From assembly GCA_030018495.1 (NCBI GenBank), contig JASEFS010000012.1, forward strand, positions 1 through 64,000: a DNA stretch of 64,000 nucleotides, read 5' to 3'. This document shows positions 10,274 through 59,255 of this stretch, in pieces. The DNA comes from Deltaproteobacteria bacterium. Its GTDB lineage: Bacteria; Desulfobacterota; Desulfobaccia; Desulfobaccales; 0-14-0-80-60-11. The notes under the pieces are model-generated. The model worked only from the letters and a program-made list of their open reading frames with translations. It did no database searches and was not told the DNA's origin. The position numbers were made by a program, and so were the translations under genes. How positions within the stretch are numbered: position 1 is the first letter of the stretch; every line of letters begins with the position of its first letter.

Positions 10274-11012
10274 AGCTACGTTCCTCGCTTTGATTGGGAA
10301 GTTGTTGATGGAAGGCGGGTGCGGTTGAGCAAACCGGCAAGGGGGGCAGGGGGTCAACCCTGCAAAGCATTGCGAGTTCGCCCCTTGTTCTCGGTTCCGG
10401 GCTGTCCTCTTAGAAATACTCCCAAGTCATTTCAACCACGATGAGTTCAAGCCCGATTCAACCGGCCGCCATTCCTAGGTAAAAAGTGAACTTCTAGGAT
10501 GTGGCTCGATGGTGTGAAGTATCCTTATCCCAGCCAAATTGCTTTGTCAAGAAAAAAAATTAAAAAGAAGGTTTATCTCATTGTAATTACTTTTATTTTT
10601 TTTCTAAATTAATTTGCTGAACTTGTACCATGGATGAACAAAGGGATTTATCGGTCTTATTTTTTGGCTGAGTGGGATGAAGAAAACTTTTTTTAAAAAA
10701 AATAAAAACGTATGTGGGAAAGAATTTTGTGACAAGGAAGGTTTTTGCGATATTGGAAAAAAAAGGCATATTTCTTAACAATATCAAAGAAATAGGAATA
10801 TTTAATTTTCGTTTATTTAGCACGGGGCCAGAAATTATCCAGACCTGCATGAGTAAGGTTGGAGAAACCGCCGTTGCCAAAAAATCAGCAGAATTTCGGA
10901 AGAGAAGGAGCTTCAGGGGCCTTTTCGAACTTATGGACCGCTTTCAGAGAAGGGGCGCCGGCCTTATTATCAGGCAGGCGCCCGACCCGAGACCTCGGGC
11001 TGTTTAGACGCC

Positions 11013-11228
11013 TCAGGTGCCGCCGAAGCCGATGGTTACCTGGCCCGCTTCCACCAGCACCGGCACCCGGCGGCTGCCGGGGGTGTGTTTGAGCATTTCT
11101 TCCAGACTGCGGGGTTCATCCACCACGTCTTTGTAAACGATTTTATAGCCTTCCTTCACTTTGGCCTCCCGGGCCCTTGTAGTGAAGGGTCAGCTCTTTT
11201 TGCCGAAAATAATGATCTCCTTAGTCAT
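11013..11228 (-). CDS. Selenocysteine-containing glutaredoxin-like protein (UXX-type), UGA at 11192..11190 read as Sec; 71 aa
   Basis: MTKEIIIFGKKS(U)PFTTRAREAKVKEGYKIVYKDVVDEPRSLEEMLKHTPGSRRVPVLVEAGQVTIGFGGT*; 216 nt in one frame; SD GGAGGTGG; UGA in the Grx active-site position (GKxxUPFT). Confidence 0.88.
11153..11188 (-). promoter_or_regulatory. Bacterial SECIS-like stem-loop 3' of the UGA
   Basis: CCTTCACT-ACAAG-GGCC-CGGGA-GGCC-AA-AGTGAAGG; 8-bp perfect lower stem plus 4-bp upper stem. Confidence 0.7.
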
Positions 11229-12450
11229 GTCCACCTCCCGAATTTTTGCCTAGATAATAAGCCCTGATGTAGAGGAAATCCACCAGGTTCAGGATAAGGA
11301 GCGGTTTCTCTGAGATCGTGAATTGGACCCCCTCAAACCTGGGGTTGACCTTGGCCTTGATGTGGTTCATGATCTCGTCGGCCGCGCCGGGATGCCGGGG
11401 CGCGGCGTGCCGCACGAAGTCCTGAATCAGAGACGACCAGCGCAGGGCCAGGGTCTGGCATTCCTGGCGCAGCTTCACCCGCAGCGGCTTCAGGGCATCA
11501 TCAAAAAAGTCGCCGATGTCCTCATATTTCGTCTTGATTTTGCCGAAATCCCATTTTTTCATTTCACGGTATTCCCGGGCCGTGGGGCTGTTCAGGCGTT
11601 CGAAGTCAAGGTCGATGACGCTGATATCCGGCGCCCCGGGGGTGTTGGCCGGGATATAGGCGATGTTGATGACGGCCTCGGGATAGCGGGAGTTGCTCAG
11701 GGTAAAGCCGCGGCTGAACCGCTTTCCCGGGCGGTCGTAATTTTTGGCTTCAAGCACGGACCAGCCGTCTTTTTCCAAAAACCGCCAGAGGCCTTCGGCC
11801 TGAGGAATAAGGTGGCGCAATTCAGCAAACCCGCCTACCGGCCGGGGGCCTGAAGGCGGCGGCGACCATTCCGGTTCGGGCGCAGGGGCGGGGGCGGGTT
11901 CGGGCTCGGGCTCCCGCTCCTCTATCTGCGGGGCGGGCTGCGGAGGAGGCGCCGGCAGCAATTCTGCCTGTCTGGGTGCGCCTTCAGGTTTCAAGCCGAT
12001 GATGAAGGCGGTTTGGCCGCTTCTGAGCGTCTGGACCCGGCGCCACCAGGTGTAAGGACGTTGGGGGTCCATTTCCATGATGATCTGGACGCCATGGCCG
12101 TCGGGACCCACTTGGGTGAGCACGCGTTTTACCAGAAGCTCGTCTCCGAACTGCTGCGGCGGCAGGGCACCGGCCCGGCCTCGGGGAAAGTCTATGATCA
12201 TTTGAGGTATGCCGTTAACGGTTTTCTGGGCAATAAGAGGCGCAGCCTGCCGGTTCAGCATTACGGTGAGCAGGGTTTGTTCACCGACCCGGCTCAGGCC
12301 CACTTGGCGCACTTCCACAGGCTCCCTGAAAGTCTGGGCGGTGCTGGCCGTGCAAAGAGCGGTCCAGATCAAAATGGCAATAAAAAAAGCGGCCAGGGTT
12401 TTTTCCCTCAAGCCAGGCTGAAAGGGAGAGAGAGGGTAAGGGTTGTTCAT
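11221..12450 (-). CDS. Exported AMIN-domain-like protein with Pro/Glu-rich linker
   Basis: Signal peptide; VEVRQVGLSRVGEQTLLTVMLNRQAAP, PQMIIDFPRGRAG, FIIGLKPEG; stop overlaps the start of the 11013-11228 CDS. Confidence 0.7.
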   Translation of the reverse strand: MNNPYPLSPFQPGLREKTLAAFFIAILIWTALCTASTAQTFREPVEVRQVGLSRVGEQTLLTVMLNRQAAPLIAQKTVNGIPQMIIDFPRGRAGALPPQQFGDELLVKRVLTQVGPDGHGVQIIMEMDPQRPYTWWRRVQTLRSGQTAFIIGLKPEGAPRQAELLPAPPPQPAPQIEEREPEPEPAPAPAPEPEWSPPPSGPRPVGGFAELRHLIPQAEGLWRFLEKDGWSVLEAKNYDRPGKRFSRGFTLSNSRYPEAVINIAYIPANTPGAPDISVIDLDFERLNSPTAREYREMKKWDFGKIKTKYEDIGDFFDDALKPLRVKLRQECQTLALRWSSLIQDFVRHAAPRHPGAADEIMNHIKAKVNPRFEGVQFTISEKPLLILNLVDFLYIRAYYLGKNSGGGHD

Positions 12451-12538: not shown

Positions 12539-12919
12539 TCATCCGCCGGTTTTTGTGCGAATGAAATTCAAGCACTTGTCCGGGGGGCAGCCGGAGTGCC
12601 ATTCCCCGGTCATATCTGCGGAGAGCTTTTTGCCCTCCTCGCTGGGGATGATGATGATAATGCCGCCTTCCTTGGTGTACAGCCAGATGCGGCCGTCGTT
12701 CACCCGCCATTTGAATTTGGTGGATTTTCCTTCCAGAGTCCAGGTGCCTTCGCCGTTATCCTTGAGCACCAGTTCTATGTGGCCTTTGCCGGCATAAGGT
12801 TCCATGGATTGATAGGTTCCGGCGAAGGGGGCGCGGGACTCGCCGCAGCCCGCCAGCACCAGGCCGAACAGGAGCAGCCCCAAGGTTGCGGTCAATTTCA
12901 GATAGCTTGTCTTCTTCAT
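12539..12919 (-). CDS. Putative lipoprotein
   Basis: MKKTSYLKLTATLGLLLFGLVLAGCGESR lipobox. Confidence 0.75.
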   Translation of the reverse strand: MKKTSYLKLTATLGLLLFGLVLAGCGESRAPFAGTYQSMEPYAGKGHIELVLKDNGEGTWTLEGKSTKFKWRVNDGRIWLYTKEGGIIIIIPSEEGKKLSADMTGEWHSGCPPDKCLNFIRTKTGG

Positions 12920-14358
12920 ATCTTTCTTTCCCGCCATACAAATCCACCCCGATCCAGCACAAAAAGGCGGTCGTAGAAGAAAATTTGGGCGGCCATGACC
13001 AGCATTCCGGTGTTTTTAAGAACCTTCCACCAGGTCACCGGCTCGCCCGCTTCACCAACGCAGCCGCAGCTGATGGGCAGATTGTAATACAAGGCATTGA
13101 CCAGGCCGACGATGAAGATGATATTCATGCCGCCGATGAGGGTGGCGGCAGCCCGGGTGCGGATGCCCAGAATAAGAAAGAGGCCGACGAGGAGCTCAGC
13201 CCAGGGCAGGATGAGAGCCCAAAGGTTGACGCCCCAGGCAGGCATCATGCCGTAATCCACCACATTAAGGGCAAAAACCGCGGGGCGCATGATTTTGCTC
13301 AAGGCAAACTGAATGAAGATCACCCCCAGAAGCACGCGGCAAAATGCCGACAGGTAGGGGCTGCGGCGCACGGGAGGGATAAGGATGAGCAAGAAGATGC
13401 TCACCGGCAGCCACTCAATCAACCCCGCCACGCCCAAAGGCATGTGACCGGGTTTCTTGACCTGGCCTTCGACCACAGGGAAAACCCGGGGCCAATCCCG
13501 GTAGCTGTCTCCTCCGAATACCCTTACCTTCTCAAAGCCCTTGTCCTTGAGGGCGCGGGCCAGCTCCAGGTCAAAGCGCCGGCTGATGACGCCGCCGTAA
13601 GCAATGACAGGCTGTTCTTTGGGATTTTCCTTTTGGGCCAACATGAACTCGAACATGGGGTACATCAGGTCAAAAAAGACCACCGGCAGATTCAAGGCCT
13701 CCCGGATGTGCCGCTGTTCATAAAAGCCGTTTTTGCGGGCGTCGACGAATATTGCCGCGTTTTCCTGGTAGAGCTTCCGGGCCTCGGTCAGGGAAATTTC
13801 GGTCACTTCGTCTTTGTCCCAGGTTTGGATGAGGGGAATCTGGTTGTCATTGTAAAGATTGAAAACCAGGGCAAAAACGATGCTTAGGCCGATCATGAGG
13901 GCGTAATCGAACCAGGAGACTTTGCGGAGCTTGGCCTCGCGGACGACCTCGCGTTCCAGCCGCCGATCGCCGGTGACCAGCCAATGGGCTAATTGCTGGA
14001 TGATATGACGGGCCAGTTGGGGATTGTTATCCAGGACAAAATCGAATTCCTCTTTGGAGACCTGGAACAGGTGCGAGTCCTCCACCGCTTCCACTGAGGC
14101 GGTGCGAGGCTGGCCGGTCACCAAAGCGACTTCGCCGAAATAATCTCCAGGACCCAGTTCGGTCAAATCAGTGCGGATGCCGTCTGCGGTCTCGCGAAAA
14201 ACCCGCAGGCGGCCGGACTTAATCACGTAAAAATGGTTCGGCGGTTCACCCTGCCTGACGATACAAGTGCCGGAGGGAACTGAGACCTCCCGGCCGACCT
14301 GCTCCAGCTTGAGACCGCCGCCTTTGTCTTCGGCACCGGGTCCATTCGTTTGGGCCAT
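12916..14358 (-). CDS. Fusion: cyclic-nucleotide-binding domain, rhodanese-like domain (no catalytic Cys), DoxX/MauE-type membrane domain
   Basis: IVRQGEPPNHFYVIKSGRLRVF, GPGDYFGEVALVTGQPRTASVEA (cNMP); IFVDARKNGFYEQRHIREALNLP, VIAYGGVISRR (rhodanese-like); FALSKIMRP, WAELLVGLFLILGIRTRAAA, ISCGCVGEAGEPVTWWKVLKN (MauE/DoxX-like). Confidence 0.85.
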   Translation of the reverse strand: MAQTNGPGAEDKGGGLKLEQVGREVSVPSGTCIVRQGEPPNHFYVIKSGRLRVFRETADGIRTDLTELGPGDYFGEVALVTGQPRTASVEAVEDSHLFQVSKEEFDFVLDNNPQLARHIIQQLAHWLVTGDRRLEREVVREAKLRKVSWFDYALMIGLSIVFALVFNLYNDNQIPLIQTWDKDEVTEISLTEARKLYQENAAIFVDARKNGFYEQRHIREALNLPVVFFDLMYPMFEFMLAQKENPKEQPVIAYGGVISRRFDLELARALKDKGFEKVRVFGGDSYRDWPRVFPVVEGQVKKPGHMPLGVAGLIEWLPVSIFLLILIPPVRRSPYLSAFCRVLLGVIFIQFALSKIMRPAVFALNVVDYGMMPAWGVNLWALILPWAELLVGLFLILGIRTRAAATLIGGMNIIFIVGLVNALYYNLPISCGCVGEAGEPVTWWKVLKNTGMLVMAAQIFFYDRLFVLDRGGFVWRERKI

Positions 14359-14514
14359 GTTTTCCTTCCAAGGGGAATGTGCTGCCACATAATCCCGAAA
14401 AGACCAATTTCCTTGTATCACAATATTTCTTCTCTGTGAACTGTATGCAGGTAGAAAACCATAATGGGGTAAACAAGAACCCCGGTTAAAAAATTTTGCT
14501 TTAGAAGGGGTTCT

Positions 14515-58028: not shown

Positions 58029-59255
58029 TTATTGTAAATAATTTTCAATGGCGGTTTTCATCGGGACAAGATTGAAGCCGGGGGCGAACCAGCTCTCCCG
58101 ATGGACAATGGTACCATCCTGGCCGATAAAATAAGCGCAATTGGGCAAGTAGCCGTAAGTGCACCAAAACGGATTGTCCATTTCATCAATAAGGACCGGC
58201 GTGGTGATGGGATGCTCCGTCCGGCCGTAATGCTGGACCAGGCTCCTGGCCTGATGCACCCGCTCCTTGAAGGTTTTCGGCTGGAAGAGGGGATGGTTGC
58301 TCCATGCTCCTTCATCACCGAGATCGGTAATGATGCTAGTCGGGTATTCCCACCATTCCTTCCAGCCTGTCACGTTGCCGCCGTCCCAAGGCCAGCTTCG
58401 CTGGTAGGGGGACCGGGAGGCGTTTGGGTGGGGATCAATGACATACACCGTGAGGACGTGAATATCGTTGCCGTAAAGAGATTTCAATTCCTCTGCGGCA
58501 GCGACCCGCTGCCGGTAGGGGTTTCAGGTGAAGGCGCCGACCACCAGAAGGACCGGCTTTTCTTTAAGAAGTTCGGAAAGAGTGAATTTCTCAAGGGGTT
58601 GCGGGGCATTGCCGACCGGGTTCAGGTTCTCGGGTTTGAACCCCCAGAGGGTGAAGTCCACCGCCTTGTCGCCCGCATTGGGGCCCAGGGCGTCGAAGTC
58701 GGGGGCTTCGGGCCGCATAAAGGCGCCGCACTTAAGTTCTGAGCCGGTCTCTTCAAAACTGACGGGGGTCTGGCAGAGAAGGAAGTTTTCGAGGTGCTCG
58801 ATCGGCCTTAAAGGATTCTCATATCGGCTGGGAATCAGCAGAAATTTGGCCGATAGAAGATCCAGGTTGAATTTGTAAGAATCGGCCATGTTCAGGTTGC
58901 CGGCTCCATTGGAGACGCCCCGGCAGATGACTTCGGCCTTATTGGGGATCGTCACTTCAGGTTCCCGGCTCCAAATGAGGGCATACTCAGTGTTTGGCTC
59001 CAGGCGCTGGGCATTGAAAACAAAATCAAAGCTGGGGCCGCTCTGCTTGTATTGCAGCTTGCCCTTGGCGCCGTCAGGCACTACTGCTCCTGAGGCGTCA
59101 ATTTCGTAAAACTCCGCGAAGGCAACCTTTGATTTAGCGGCGACCTTATAACGTGAGAGAGCGAATATGGCAGAGCCCGCGGCCACGTCGGCCGGCAAGA
59201 CTCCCAAAGCAAAGGCTATGAATACGGCCAGGCAATGCGATACCAGCCTTCTCAT
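58029..59255 (-). CDS. Exported iodothyronine-deiodinase-like selenoprotein, UGA at 58526..58524 read as Sec; 408 aa
   Basis: ORFs 58524-59255 and 58029-58487 are in the same frame (1227 nt). Joined: PVLLVVGAFT(U)NPYRQRVAAAEELKSLYGNDIHVLTVYVIDPHPNA...TPVLIDEMDNPFWCTYGYLPNCAYFIGQDGTIVHRESW. Confidence 0.9.
58496..58514 (-). promoter_or_regulatory. Bacterial SECIS-like hairpin 3' of the UGA
   Basis: CGGCAGC-GGGTC-GCTGCCG, 7-bp perfect stem starting 10 nt after UGA; loop contains GGUC as in the E. coli fdhF SECIS. Confidence 0.8.

Follow-up and report, generated by a model that had tools for sequence, protein, structure and literature searches.

Two in-frame UGA codons, each followed by its own putative SECIS hairpin, in a UXX-star glutaredoxin-like gene

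Does a short minus-strand frame that ordinary ORF calling passes over encode a glutaredoxin-like selenoprotein, and with how many selenocysteines (Sec)? The frame lies in the window, by which we mean the whole 64,000-nucleotide stretch of DNA that was analysed. The initial annotation had proposed a 71-residue selenoprotein with a single Sec at 11228-11013, and translation confirmed the frame as far as it went: from ATG 11228 the minus strand reads MTKEIIIFGKKS-U-PFTTRAREAKVKEGYKIVYKDVVDEPRSLEEMLKHTPGSRRVPVLVEAGQVTIGFGGT, with a UGA at residue 13, and then meets a second UGA. That second codon (11015-11013) had been taken as the end. Since relatives also continue with G-V-like residues past it, it is residue 72, the frame runs on through G-V-TAA to 11004, and the product has 74 residues and two Sec, ending in GGT-U-G-V-TAA with U72 three residues from the end. 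Other parts of the proposal were accurate: the ORF list (at least 60 aa) lacks the gene, a strong Shine-Dalgarno sequence (GGGAGGT) stands just 5′ of the ATG, which in turn shares bases with the stop codon of the 409-aa ORF upstream (ATGACTAA). An ordinary ORF call cuts this 74-aa gene at two codons, and its correct annotation is easily missed. The features are as follows.

11004..11228, minus strand: gene assigned to UXX-star family 1, a predicted double selenoprotein; 74 codons plus TAA (11006-11004); NF041114.2, 98.7 bits
11190..11192, minus strand: UGA-1, putative Sec13, active site U-P-F-T; aligned Sec in 95/109 and Cys in 14/109 family genes
11013..11015, minus strand: UGA-2, putative Sec72, C-terminal U-G-V-stop; Sec in 109/109 family genes, always followed by x-[V/I]
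11233..11239, minus strand: ribosome-binding site GGGAGGT, 5′ of ATG 11228, from the sequence; similar purine-rich sites in relatives
11221..12450, minus strand: 409-aa gene overlapping the UXX-star start; AMIN-like by eye; its place beside UXX-star is conserved in the family and order

The profile search that had been proposed as the first check bore out the seleno-glutaredoxin call. Against the NCBIfam profile NF041114.2 (UXX-star selenoprotein family 1), whose cut-off is 72 bits, the product scored 98.7 bits, with residues 5-72 aligned to positions 1-68 of 70 and residue 72 at position 68. NF041114 found the gene again in a six-frame search of the genome (88.2 bits, positions 1-70), and the Pfam glutaredoxin profile PF00462 scored 29.8 bits against a cut-off of 22.9. 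The match to the family, with members in 63 of 199 related genomes, is far beyond chance. UPFT at residues 13-16 together with U72 supply the active-site UxxT and the two Sec of NF041114, and the C-terminal U-x-x-stop is present as U-G-V-TAA at 11015-11004. The kind is already known, its two Sec included: a 2026 review (PMC13188914) has an entry for NF041114 under the name ‘Distant Grx-like protein 1’, with motif UxxT and two Sec, and cites a 2008 GOS survey for it. The window gene, whose profile match exceeds the cut-off and reaches residue 72, has U-P-F-T, U-x-V-stop and two Sec; it differs from the family in nothing that matters and is an ordinary member, from what its named relatives suggest is a delta-proteobacterial lineage. 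We are nearly certain of its membership in UXX-star family 1 and of its two Sec codons.

The name ‘UXX’ used at the outset was right for the family and probably wrong in its active-site sense, as the invariant U-x-x-stop is C-terminal. ‘UXX-star’ probably stands for Sec-x-x-stop at the C-terminus, which is our own reading of the profile and alignments and not a quotation. Haft and Tolstoy (mSystems, 2025) are cited for the related UXX-star families. The UxxC seleno-glutaredoxins in the review's table (PMC13188914, where structures from Clostridium oremlandii are cited) share the glutaredoxin fold and a Sec or Cys active site; the window protein differs in having UxxT without a second Cys, in lacking, as modelled, the last helix, and in carrying a second, C-terminal Sec.

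How fixed are the two Sec positions? Family matches over the cut-off were found in 63/199 related genomes and in 101/398 genomes drawn across the phylum; these sets, the window's gene and five named contigs from a single-protein scan gave 109 distinct genes of the same architecture. The C-terminal residue is Sec in all 109, in a sample that was collected with the family's own profile and from which distant tail-Cys forms could therefore be missing. At residue 13, in the active site, Sec (95 genes) alternates with Cys (14 genes); homologues with aligned Sec or Cys, whose absence would have spoken against the call, thus exist. The Sec/Cys label changes about 12 times on the tree, at least eight of these changes being forced by well-supported branches; the number is rough because the tree rests on 68 columns only. 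The comparison adds two testable points to what was known: of the two Sec it is the one in the tail that stays fixed, and SECIS-2 (below) would act from 3′ of the stop codon.

After the tail Sec the genes continue with x-[V/I] and then TGA (55), TAA (22), TAG (21) or a run-on (11), so that a stop directly follows U-x-[V/I] in 98/109. This stop is UGA in 55 of the 98 (e.g. L017, L024 and L030), which places a Sec UGA and a stop UGA nine nucleotides apart. A third Sec at the relatives' terminal UGA was considered and rejected, the sequence downstream being unconserved. In one sub-branch (L084, L086, L091-L094, L098), the stretch from the GF motif to the tail Sec is longer by about a dozen residues, and several of its members run on beyond U-x-x.

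What might the second Sec do? We ran AlphaFold on six sequences with cysteine in place of Sec. The best model reached a pLDDT of 91.8 (77-82 for the other four), with strands at residues 4-9, 29-34, 57-60 and 63-66, helices at 14-25 and 39-48, and short bridges at 54-55 and 72-73. The model lacks the last glutaredoxin helix, and the fold ends after strand β4. When residues 72-74 were left out, the 54-55 bridge vanished, which indicates pairing of the tail with the residues directly N-terminal to Pro56, expected to be a cis-proline. The models thus support docking of the U72-G73 tail by a β bridge to residues 54-55, beside cis-Pro56. Glutaredoxins, GSH-bound cGrx2 among them, have the nearest folds in the PDB (TM-score about 0.77 by query length). 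In glutaredoxin-glutathione complexes, the glutathione backbone adjoins the cis-proline; a tail at this site would put U72 near U13.

Tail docking is not proof of a redox pair. We nonetheless think it reasonably probable that U72 serves as a built-in replacement for glutathione and forms a reversible bond with residue 13. In this shortened glutaredoxin, the Sec tail would dock where the backbone of glutathione or of a substrate normally sits, and a reversible diselenide would link U13 to U72, or a selenenylsulphide would do so where residue 13 is Cys, making the protein a self-contained reductase or relay. Thioredoxin reductase, which ends in a Gly-Cys-Sec-Gly tail, likewise uses a near-C-terminal Sec as a mobile redox arm; its fold and cofactor are unrelated, and in the window protein the partner would be the active-site Sec of the same chain. 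For the more demanding proposal, a glutathione-free, self-resolving selenium redoxin whose C-terminal Sec is chemically indispensable and fills the glutathione site of its own fold, we see the chances as evenly balanced.

Partners of such a relay may include a membrane protein encoded upstream.

12916..14421, minus strand: cNMP-binding + rhodanese + MauE/DoxX membrane protein, upstream; conserved in the same cluster

Genomes of the window organism's family and order share the gene order cNMP-binding/rhodanese/MauE, a small lipoprotein-like gene, the 409-aa gene and UXX-star. The 409-aa gene has no Pfam or NCBIfam match. Other lineages of the phylum show a different context, one genome group having GroEL-like and NDK-like genes around UXX-star (judged from their sequences), so the neighbours suggest partners for the window's lineage only. 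In a sister family, the cNMP-binding/rhodanese/MauE protein is split into two genes (L159, L175).

The main rival to the redox pair is a soft-metal or metalloid site (Hg, As, Cu) formed by the two Sec, for binding or detoxification. Two selenols near each other would bind such elements, and the review allows that UXX-star Sec residues may be metal ligands or contact unknown substrates (PMC13188914). However, the U/C-P-[YF]-T active site and the fold are those of a glutaredoxin, and no metal-resistance gene was seen among the neighbours scanned. We consider a metal site unlikely, if still worth keeping in view.

Each UGA is followed by a predicted hairpin, numbered here from the U of UGA as nt 1.

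11153..11192, minus strand: SECIS-1; upper stem 11175-11172 / 11166-11163, loop CGGGA 11171-11167, lower stem 11188-11181 / 11160-11153
10976..11015, minus strand: SECIS-2; upper stem 11000-10995 / 10990-10985, loop GGUC 10994-10991, outer stem 11013-11006 / 10983-10976

In SECIS-2, the upper hairpin (GCCCGA-GGUC-UCGGGU) lies wholly 3′ of the TAA and presents its loop at nt 22-25, the register of E. coli fdhF. A long stem-loop 3′ of UGA-1 had been predicted and was found (SECIS-1, −18.1 kcal/mol, z −2.3); the interval named for it, 11150-11195, holds this first element, and the second (−21.0 kcal/mol, z −1.6), at about 11015-10976, falls outside. Both agree with the bacterial SECIS model of the review (PMC13188914), with 4 bp, loop CGGGA and 18 nt for SECIS-1 and 6 bp, loop GGUC and 18 nt for SECIS-2. 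Bacterial SECIS elements typically lie within the coding region, though the model does not demand it (PMC13188914); SECIS-1 does so, and SECIS-2 departs from the rule by a few nucleotides. At these z-scores the fold energies are weak evidence by themselves, so the argument for RNA rests on covariation.

For SECIS-1, the telling positions are nt 21 and nt 27, the wobble positions of an Ala and a Glu/Ser codon. This synonymous pair is formed in 95/95 Sec forms (C-G 65, T-A 22, T-G 8) vs. 7/14 Cys forms. In shuffles, a mean of 80.0 genes were paired and none of 2000 reached 95, a count that is not a probability because the sequences are related. Between these bases, at nt 22-24, the Sec forms encode Arg only by CGG, CGT or AGG and never by CGC, CGA or AGA, which together make up 118 of the 294 Arg codons elsewhere in those genes; in the Cys forms, CGC appears at nt 22-24 in 4 of 14. 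A SelB loop that needs G23 and G or U24 would restrict the codons in this way. A loose SECIS model at 4 bp separated the forms poorly (96% of Sec vs. 93% of Cys forms), and synonymous-site pairing separated them better.

The upper stem of SECIS-2 starts 3′ of the stop in 95% of the 92 genes that have a stop at nt 10-12 and a stem of at least 5 bp. Across the relatives, the best stem there averaged 6.9 bp, compared with 4.1-4.6 bp at seven control offsets; a stem of at least 5 bp with its loop at nt 20-26 occurred in 86% vs. 17-26%, and a loop with GG or GT in 92% vs. 15-39%. Several pair types are found at every stem position, that is, the stem covaries freely. Judged by this comparison, both putative hairpins are conserved as RNA, and decoding of UGA-13 and UGA-72 as Sec, each by its own bacterial SECIS, is strongly supported. 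The genes in which UGA would stand first for Sec and, nine nucleotides on, for stop offer a clean natural test of how the reading of UGA depends on where the SelB-binding hairpin lies.

A single-Sec protein of 71 residues ending at UGA-72 would need only the stop codon that is formally present, and some termination is expected at any Sec codon. Yet this UGA is kept in 109/109 genes, followed by x-[V/I] and mostly then by a stop, and has a dedicated, covarying hairpin; we rejected the 71-aa product on its conservation and the SECIS-2 covariation, and regard it as very improbable. A decayed glutaredoxin pseudogene, suggested by the two in-frame UGA codons, has virtually no chance and was rejected as well, since no stop other than UGA stands at either site, both sites keep their place throughout the phylum, protein and RNA signals are conserved, and the Sec machinery is full.

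This machinery, whose absence had been named as grounds for dropping the Sec call, is complete in the genome: SelA (604.4 bits), SelB (372.7 bits), SelD (386.5 bits) and tRNA-Sec (73.2 bits) all scored over their cut-offs. Rfam at gathering thresholds returned no RNA except tRNA-Cys. The SelD gene (L037, G000:C55:29319-30230) has an in-frame TGA, and this SelD is thus probably itself a selenoprotein. Finally, the window holds another frame with an internal TGA (58032-59255, minus strand, TGA at 58526), which reads through as PVLLVVGAFT-U-NPYRQRVAAAE. It scored 72.5 bits with the NCBIfam deiodinase family NF038285, below the cut-off of 250; it may be a deiodinase-like selenoprotein, and may correspond to the other Sec call that the initial annotation had made in the window.
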